From: Chloroflexota bacterium
GTDB lineage: Bacteria; Chloroflexota; Dehalococcoidia; Lucifugimonadales; Lucifugimonadaceae
Assembly (NCBI GenBank): GCA_027623795.1
Contig: JAQBUX010000004.1
Location: 1 to 42,330, forward strand
Length of the DNA: 42,330 bases
Reading direction: 5' to 3'
In this document: in pieces, positions 12,394-33,254 of the stretch
Layout: every line of letters starts with the position of its first letter
How positions within the stretch are numbered: the stretch's first letter is position 1
Program-made: the position numbers and the translations under genes
The notes under the pieces: model-generated
What the model saw: only the letters and a program-made list of their open reading frames with translations
Databases searched by the model: none
What the model was told of the DNA's origin: nothing

Positions 12394-12605
12394 GGTCGTG
12401 CTAGGCGGGAAGCTAGCGGTGTCCTGTACCTGCAATCCGCTTTAGCAGGGCTTAATTCCTTCCGGAGGTCGGACAAGTTGGTCACTACGTCGTAGATACG
12501 GTGTTGAGAGTCGGGTCCTGCGCGGCGAGGACTCGTGAACCCCGTCAGGTCCGGAAGGAAGCAGCGGTAAGCGGGGCCCCTTGGGCGACGCAGGCCGGCC
12601 TGGCT
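12394..12605 (+). ncRNA. ffs: Signal recognition particle RNA (large bacterial type)
   Basis: 5' portion GTGCTAGGCGGGAAGCTAGCGGTGTCCTGTACCTGCAATCCGCTTTAGCAGGG...; domain IV core GTCAGGTCCGGAAGGAAGCAGCGGTAAG. Confidence 0.92.
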
Positions 12606-12646
12606 CGAGTCGTAATCTACGCGCATACCGGCGCTGTCCGAACGAA

Positions 12647-13591
12647 ATGAAGGTGCACGACCACTCTCCAACCAAGTCACGGAGACCCCCTCGGCCTGGC
12701 GGCAATCGTCGGCCGAGCGGGTCTCCGAAGAAGTCACTTGGGCAACATTTTCTGCGCGATCCAGAGATAGCCGTCCGCATCGTTGAAGCGGCGCGCATTG
12801 AGCCCGGCGAACTTGTGCTAGAGATCGGCCCCGGCAGGGGCGCGATCACGGAAATGCTTGTGAACCGGGCGGGGCGTATGGTGCTGGTTGAGCTGGACGG
12901 CGCCCTTGCCGACATGCTCACCGAGCGCTACCTCGAAAACCAAAACATCCGCGTGATCGAGTCGGACGCCCGCGATCTTGACCTGTCTGAGTCCGGGGAC
13001 CTTCCGGAGATCCTGGAACGGTCCTACAAGGTTGTCGCGAACCTCCCGTACTACGCGGCATCGCCGATAATCCGACGTTTTTTGGAGGCTGACAATCCCC
13101 CGGCCGAGATGGTCGTGATGGTGCAGCGGGAGGTGGCGCGTGAGATGGCGGCTCCAGAAGGAAGGATGGGGTTACTCTCGGTGGCGACGCAGTATTACGC
13201 CGATGTCGAGGTCGTTTTCGACGTACCAGCTGCGGCATTCATCCCACCTCCTAAAGTTGTCTCGTCCGTGATCAGGCTGGTTAAACGCGCATCGCCGCCG
13301 CTGGAGATCGATGACGAGCCAGCATTTTTCAGTTTTGTGCGCGCTGGATTCAAAGCGCCCCGGAAGCAACTGCACAATTCTTTGGCCCGTGGGCTGTTGA
13401 TCGAAATACCTGAGGCGGCCGGCATCATCGCCAGAGCCGGGCTTGACCCCGTCCGCCGTCCCCGGACGCTCTCCACCGCCGAATGGGGTCGCCTCTACGA
13501 AGCAAGGGCCGGAATGCAAGAACGGGCCGCCTCCGCGGCTCCCGCGCTTGTCGGCGAGGAGGCGGCCGACGACCGACAGGCGGGTGCTTGA
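12647..13591 (+). CDS. rsmA: 16S rRNA dimethyladenosine transferase
   Basis: KKSLGQHFLRDPEI, VLEIGPGRGAITEML, VVANLPYYAASPIIRRFL. The tracked start at 12581 lies inside the SRP RNA, so ATG 12647 is preferred. Confidence 0.95.
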   Translation: MKVHDHSPTKSRRPPRPGGNRRPSGSPKKSLGQHFLRDPEIAVRIVEAARIEPGELVLEIGPGRGAITEMLVNRAGRMVLVELDGALADMLTERYLENQNIRVIESDARDLDLSESGDLPEILERSYKVVANLPYYAASPIIRRFLEADNPPAEMVVMVQREVAREMAAPEGRMGLLSVATQYYADVEVVFDVPAAAFIPPPKVVSSVIRLVKRASPPLEIDDEPAFFSFVRAGFKAPRKQLHNSLARGLLIEIPEAAGIIARAGLDPVRRPRTLSTAEWGRLYEARAGMQERAASAAPALVGEEAADDRQAGA

Positions 13592-31672: not shown

Positions 31673-31860
31673 GGCGAAGGGAAAGCCTGAGCAGGACGGG
31701 GTTTGGGTGGGAGTGTCAGTCTACCGAAGCCGCCCGATCCGGCCGTCCGGAAACCGGGTACCTGTAACCAGACTTTTGACCGGGGTTCCGGCCATAACTA
31801 GACTGTTGTGGCTTCCGACATTTTTGTGGGTCGGATGCAAGCATGTCTGGAGGGCTCCAG

Positions 31861-32502
31861 TTGGTTACGACCACTCCGATCAAGACCGAGATTTTTATCG
31901 ACTTCACCTGACCGTGGGTCAAACAGGCGGGCAGTTGGCTCGCCGACGTCAAAGAGGCGATGGGTGACGATCTGCAGATCACCTGGCGGAGCTTCGCCCT
32001 CGAACAAGTGAACAGCAAAGAAGGCGACGACTGGAAGGCCTGGGAGCAGGGCCCGGATTACGAGAGCCGTGGATTGCTCGCGCTGTGCGCTGGCGAGGCG
32101 TCAAAGAGTCAAGGCGACAAGCTCCACAACAAGTTCTTCATGAACCTGCTTGAGGCGCGGCACGTGGACCGCAAAGACGTGCGCGATCGTGAGGTCATTC
32201 TCGAGATCGCCCGTGATAGCGGCCTGGATCTGGAAAAGTTCGAGAAGGAACTCGACGATCCGGAGACGCTCAAGAAGGTTGGAGCGGACCACGAACGGGC
32301 CGCCGAGCTTGGAATTTTTGGCACGCCGACTTTCGTGTTCGAAGACGCCCCGCCGACCTTCGTAAAGACTTACACGCCGCCTAAAGAAGAGGCGGTGGAT
32401 ACGTTCAAACACTTCCTGGCCCTGTCGATGGGCAGCAAACTGTTCGGCGAAATCAAGCGCCCGCAGCCGCCGTGGCCGCGTGGCGTTTTCGACGACAAAT
32501 AG
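31861..32502 (+). CDS. DsbA-family thiol:disulfide oxidoreductase, candidate selenoprotein (Sec at TGA 31909-31911)
   Basis: TTG 31861 with GGAGGG 7 nt upstream. Reads (M)VTTTPIKTEIFIDFT-[TGA]-PWVKQAGSWLADVKEAMGDDLQITWRSFALEQVN...ELGIFGTPTFVFED. The track reports only the part from 31960. Confidence 0.8.
31926..31944 (+). promoter_or_regulatory. Candidate bacterial SECIS stem-loop
   Basis: GGCGGGC-AGTTG-GCTCGCC: 7 bp with one G-U pair. The apical loop starts 21 nt after TGA and has G as its second base. Confidence 0.65.
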
Positions 32503-32522: not shown

Positions 32523-33254
32523 GTGCTCGGGGATGTGGTCGATGAGGCACGTCTGGACGAGCTTGAGGAGCGACTGGGTGTCCGGTTCAAGGACAGGTCG
32601 CTGCTCAGGCTTGCCCTGACCCACAGTTCGTACCTGAACGAGAATCCTGACGCGGAACTGGAGTCAAACGAACGGCTGGAGTTCCTGGGCGACGCCGTGC
32701 TTGATGCGGCGATAGGGCACCGTTTGTTCCACGAGGTTCCGGAGGCGCCTGAAGGCGAACTCACGGCGATCAGGTCACACGTGGTTCGCGAGCGGGCTCT
32801 GGCCGCTGCCGCCGGCCGGCTGGGTCTTGGCGACTTCCTCACGCTTGGCCGCGGTGAGGCGGCAAACGGCGGTCGTGATAGGCCGTCTATCGCCGCTGAC
32901 GCCTTCGAGGCGGTCGCCGGGGCCGTGATGGAAGATCAGGGATACGAGGTTGTTTCGAGTTTCGTGCTCCGATGCCTGGAACCGGAACTGGCGGCGGCGC
33001 TCAACGCAGAGTCGTCAAAAGACCCGAAATCGCTTCTCCAGGAGCGTGTTCAGGCCGATGGCTCTCCGCCGCCCGAATACAGGCTGCTTGCCGAAGACGA
33101 GCATGACGAAGCCGGCCGATTCACTGTCGAGGTGGTCGTCTCCGGAGTTTCGGTGGCGAGGGGCGTGGGGCGTCGCAAATTGGACGCTGAACGCATAGCG
33201 GCGCGCCGGGCGTTGGAGCTACCTTCGTTAATCGATAGCGCCGAAGCGGAGTGA
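32523..33254 (+). CDS. rnc: Ribonuclease III (GTG start preferred)
   Basis: LALTHSSYLNENPDAELESNERLEFLGDAVLDAAIGHRLF; DAFEAVAGAVMEDQGYE; C-terminal dsRBD. GAGGA precedes GTG 32523. Confidence 0.95.
   Translation: MLGDVVDEARLDELEERLGVRFKDRSLLRLALTHSSYLNENPDAELESNERLEFLGDAVLDAAIGHRLFHEVPEAPEGELTAIRSHVVRERALAAAAGRLGLGDFLTLGRGEAANGGRDRPSIAADAFEAVAGAVMEDQGYEVVSSFVLRCLEPELAAALNAESSKDPKSLLQERVQADGSPPPEYRLLAEDEHDEAGRFTVEVVVSGVSVARGVGRRKLDAERIAARRALELPSLIDSAEAE

Follow-up and report, generated by a model that had tools for sequence, protein, structure and literature searches.

The question raised by this locus is whether a TGA triplet near the 5′ end of a gene for a DsbA-fold protein is read as selenocysteine (Sec) and, if so, what kind of enzyme would result. 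Standard gene calling places the start of the gene at an internal Met (31960), 3′ of the TGA, within the 42,330-nucleotide stretch of Chloroflexota DNA analysed here (assembly GCA_027623795.1, contig JAQBUX010000004.1; hereafter the window). The original prediction held that the frame runs further 5′ through a single TGA, from a TTG codon with a GGAGGG Shine–Dalgarno sequence, and that the TGA stands in for the nucleophilic Cys of a DsbA/FrnE-family protein. The features concerned are:

31849..31854, + strand: Shine–Dalgarno-like GGAGGG, six bases 5′ of TTG 31861
31861..32502, + strand: predicted DsbA-fold selenoprotein gene, 213 residues, TTG start, TAG stop, translated with TGA as Sec
31909..31911, + strand: almost certain UGA selenocysteine codon, residue 17, motif UPWV, from the Sec/Cys column of the orthologues and the changes on their tree
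31926..31944, + strand: candidate bacterial SECIS hairpin, stem 31926-31932 with 31938-31944, loop AGTTG 31933-31937, 21 nt after the UGA

Translation and conservation in relatives agree with the proposed frame. Between TTG 31861 and TAG 32500-32502, the TGA at 31909-31911 is the sole internal stop and lies in frame with the 31960-32502 ORF. The congeners have an ATG or TTG start exactly 16 codons 5′ of the TGA with GGAGG-type sites ahead of it, so that homologues do not begin 3′ of the TGA; because this position is kept, 31861 rather than Met 31960 is the likely start of the gene. Over the six codons 5′ of the TGA, all 24 nucleotide differences within the genus (summed over genome pairs) are third-position and synonymous, which argues that this region is translated. 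As had been claimed, TGA is a normal stop elsewhere in the window, where it ends dinG, a GNAT gene, a CCA-type nucleotidyltransferase gene and rnc, and the genetic code of the window is thus standard.

When 100 related genomes were searched with the read-through protein as query, 56 proved to encode an orthologue. The column in question holds TGA in 46 of them, TGC or TGT in 10 and nothing else, and it stays restricted to Sec or Cys over a range of protein identity from 90% within the genus down to 31% at the margin of the order. An in-frame UGA aligned with Cys in homologues, one criterion for a selenoprotein, is therefore present, and the substitution of the TGA for a catalytic Cys is borne out. 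The TGA is kept in all six congeners having the gene (85-90% protein identity); since these and the 46 orthologues in the order retain it, we take it to be real, neither a chance occurrence nor a read error. The same follows at the assembly level from the many independent assemblies with TGA where reads with TGC or TGT might have been feared. A second scan, with one genome per species, yielded 80 named loci whose titles read Dehalococcoidia, SAR202 or Chloroflexi/Chloroflexota; these contain 78 Sec and 3 Cys gene copies, with one locus (L148) lacking a visible motif. The Sec form is carried by the cultured Ca. Lucifugimonas marina JH1073, and other classes of the phylum have Sec forms too. Two loci (L113 and L124) each hold two Sec copies of the DsbA-type gene, and in other Chloroflexota genomes (L185, L186 and L217) more distant DsbA-family genes have an in-frame TGA in a UPWC motif, a dithiol-type Sec form.

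The prediction had left a SECIS element to be looked for, and the hairpin at 31926-31944 fits this role. The published bSECIS model has a loop of 3-9 nt, a stem of 4-16 bp, a distance of 16-37 nt from the UGA, a G in the first two loop positions and an MFE at or below −7.5 (PMC13188914). The window hairpin lies within all of these limits, with 7 bp, −11.8 kcal/mol and a G at loop position 2. Taken by itself, the folding energy of the wider region around the window hairpin does not differ significantly from that of shuffled sequences, and we therefore made use of covariation and synonymous-recoding controls. Pairing in the stem reaches 98.6% across 20 close Sec relatives, with C-G, U-G, G-U and G-C all seen at one position, and in 19 more distant ones, where the stem is shifted by one base, both-side changes occur at 5 of 8 pairs. 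In the ten Cys genes, pairing in both stem registers drops to the shuffle level. Compared with synonymous recodings, the hairpin region is more stable in Sec genes, with a mean z of −1.31 (86 genes) versus −0.04 in control windows of the same genes (266 windows) and −0.39 in Cys genes (9 genes), averages that rest on related rows and hence do not amount to independent tests. A few Sec relatives have a hairpin that is weak or in another register, the weak ones being AT-rich, and some have no G in the first two loop positions. In genus g10 (L018, L019, L020, L022, L024 and L025) the hairpin lies in another register with the loop CUGGCU or CUGGUU, which breaks the rule on the G; here a re-invention of the SECIS element is possible.

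Genes for Sec incorporation were found in the window's own genome, which encodes SelA, SelB and a tRNA-Sec with anticodon TCA (tRNA-Sec(UCA)), the latter confirmed by ARAGORN; their presence is a further criterion for a selenoprotein. The tRNA-Sec search also matches serine tRNAs (e.g. in L074), and only scores of ~60 bits or more were read as likely tRNA-Sec. Among the four sel genes whose presence had been at issue, selD is the exception, with no match above cut-off in the window's own assembly, which is 83% complete. SelD is present in seven of seven congeners, where it has itself an in-frame TGA, as it does in nearly all relatives having SelD (e.g. L155 and L156); from its sequence, SelD looks like a selenoprotein in this lineage. 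SelB scores above cut-off in each of the 46 Sec genomes, while among the ten Cys genomes it is absent in four and kept in six, namely five of genus g7 (G032, G023, G050, G045 and G040) and G068. In these six, other selenoproteins must therefore hold the Sec trait. On this comparative evidence, the TGA at 31909-31911 is almost certainly a selenocysteine codon.

What the Sec residue might do depends on its surroundings. The DsbA fold is assigned by a PF01323 DSBA match of 66.1 bits (cut-off 25.6). In a confident structure model (pLDDT 91.8), the first strand (residues 7-13) leads to U17 and the first helix (18-37); U17 is thereby predicted to sit where this helix begins, at the catalytic position in the usual thioredoxin active-site layout. 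A second element is expected at this site:

32323..32328, + strand: Thr155-Pro156 within FGTPT, the expected cis-Pro loop across from the active site (alignment A4)

F153, G154, P156 and T157 are invariant in alignment A4, and from the model and the thioredoxin fold Thr155-Pro156 is expected to form the cis-Pro loop opposite U17. The C-terminal PQPPWP is invariant within the order. The fourth motif position is Val (once Ala) in all 56 orthologues, and the family alignment shows no conserved second Cys at any position. Like all its orthologues, the protein thus combines a DsbA fold with a single catalytic chalcogen (UPWV) and lacks a resolving Cys. With Val, or rarely Ala, in the fourth position and no further conserved Cys, internal bond cycling of the CxxC type is not possible. 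Of the original assignment the DsbA fold stands, while membership among FrnE or dithiol DsbA proteins was rejected for want of the second Cys of the CxxC motif. Val was correctly placed at the second Cys position of UPWV, but it is the norm of the single-Cys/Sec clade and the motif is not atypical. No NCBIfam model supplied a name for the family: TsoY (NF047643, UxxV), itself a selenoprotein, matched none of the 32 members (release 20.0), and the DsbG-like seleno-lipoprotein Rcas_1661 (NF041057) gave 29.2 bits over residues 72-159 only, against a cut-off of 190 bits. Two relatives have open frames of 670 and 685 residues that could be read as a fusion with an upstream enzyme, a reading we rejected as the upstream part resembles the antisense of another gene rather than a domain.

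In both sequence and fold, the closest PDB match is the Deinococcus radiodurans protein DR2335 (7dk9, 7dka; Foldseek TM-score 0.81, 26% identity). Both proteins are DsbA-like with one chalcogen, the single conserved Cys of DR2335 lying in CPYA and the Sec of the window protein in UPWV; DR2335 lacks the PQPPWP tail. FrnE (DR_0659) and Rv2466c, thioredoxin-fold proteins of the DsbA family, share the overall fold but match less well than DR2335. FrnE has a CP(W/F)C dithiol and Rv2466c a CPWC dithiol, in contrast to the family studied here, which has no second Cys. The function of DR2335 is unreported (PMC8945050), and no paper on 7dk9 was found in the literature search.

Metagenomic precedent for DsbA-like selenoproteins, also part of the prediction, does exist. 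Table 2 of the 2008 Global Ocean Sampling survey contains "DsbA 3" (pfam01323, UxxV) with five Sec sequences and 72 Cys homologues (PMC2398784). Compared by description, it has in common with the window gene pfam01323, a UxxV Sec motif, marine origin and Cys homologues; it consists of five metagenomic sequences only, for which that table names no organism. A 2026 review has a DsbA-like protein form 2 with the motif DxxUP, MDP6049977.1 (PMC13188914, citing its reference 62). By description, this form shares PF01323 and D-x-x-U-P with the window protein (DFTUP), but unlike the latter, MDP6049977.1 is labelled a crotonase-family protein in the review table. The family is probably already known in outline, its likeness to earlier sequences being one of description only.

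Other explanations of the locus have to be weighed against this evidence. That the TGA is an ordinary stop, the protein starting at Met 31960 or the gene being a decaying pseudogene, would agree with standard gene calling and with TGA as a normal stop in the window. We consider it extremely improbable, since the genus keeps the frame 5′ of the TGA and varies it only synonymously, since relatives swap the TGA for Cys codons and never for another stop, and since the truncated form would, in the predicted model, be left without its first strand and active site. Decoding of the TGA as Cys or Trp, through a reassigned code or readthrough, could account for the Cys of relatives in the same column. 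Such decoding is left with next to no probability by the use of TGA to end at least four genes in the window, by the presence of tRNA-Sec, SelA and SelB, and by a covarying hairpin 3′ of the TGA that occurs only in TGA genes.

If the Sec residue is accepted, the nature of the enzyme can be read in other ways. The PF01323 match and the FrnE structures among the matches might point to a conventional DsbA/FrnE dithiol enzyme in which Sec is incidental, but this is very improbable given that no second Cys occurs at the fourth motif position or is conserved elsewhere in the family and that the FrnE matches are weaker than DR2335. The selenoprotein might also be real but act outside thiol redox chemistry, as a transferase or isomerase in the manner of GST kappa or 2-hydroxychromene-2-carboxylate isomerase. 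These two enzymes have the DsbA fold and need no resolving Cys, of which the selenoprotein family has none, and structures of both turn up in the profile and fold searches. GST kappa and 2-hydroxychromene-2-carboxylate isomerase have Ser at the equivalent position, whereas Sec here exchanges with Cys only, never with Ser, and the closest match, DR2335, is a Cys protein, so that we regard this possibility as unlikely, if worth keeping in mind. As a whole, the explanation that comparative sequence data make highly probable is a DsbA-fold selenoprotein, probably cytoplasmic, in which UGA codon 17 would be decoded as Sec by tRNA-Sec(UCA) and SelB, guided by the hairpin just 3′. Its most likely role would be in monoselenol redox chemistry: the selenolate of U17 would react with a disulfide, a mixed disulfide or a peroxide, and an external thiol would then resolve the selenenyl intermediate. 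For the part of a monoselenol redox enzyme with an external thiol as resolving partner, we lean towards this function by a narrow preference.

On a tree built with the Sec column masked, well-supported branches make three or more Sec/Cys changes necessary. The Cys forms fall in small-genome lineages (genera g6, g7 and g20). The tree has no firm root and contains some long branches, but Sec to Cys is the more natural direction of change. The selenoprotein gene is taken to be old in SAR202/Dehalococcoidia, several lineages having swapped Sec for Cys. More tentatively, and with some doubt on our part, the monoselenol DsbA might be a near-core selenoenzyme of ancestral origin in SAR202 and related Chloroflexota, working with an external low-molecular-weight thiol in place of a resolving Cys, and might be among the genes that help to keep the Sec trait alive in this abundant deep-ocean lineage.

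The DsbA-type selenoprotein, encoded here by an uncultured ocean bacterium, is widespread in SAR202, a group within the Chloroflexota that is ubiquitous in the ocean. We found no account of SAR202 selenoproteins in the literature searched, and the SAR202 cultivation paper makes no mention of selenium (PMC10444878). What is new here concerns the host lineage, the depth of conservation, the SECIS covariation, the repeated Sec/Cys switches, the missing resolving Cys as a family trait and the cultured strain carrying the gene. As ordinary gene calling starts 3′ of the TGA, the active site would vanish from the annotation. With the Sec form present in Ca. Lucifugimonas marina JH1073, Sec incorporation and selenium dependence are testable, and the Sec/Cys switches offer natural pairs for the contribution of Sec in a thioredoxin-fold enzyme with a single chalcogen.

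The selenoprotein gene is followed by a second gene on the same strand:

32523..33254, + strand: rnc (ribonuclease III; PF14622, PF00636, dsrm), 20 bases 3′ of the selenoprotein gene

The two are probably co-transcribed, and among 100 loci fetched for the family, 84 showed a relative of rnc. The surrounding genes (rnc, ftsY) have housekeeping roles and carry little information on the substrate. The sole Rfam match in the window at the gathering threshold is a bacterial large SRP RNA at 12396-12660 on the + strand (181 bits).
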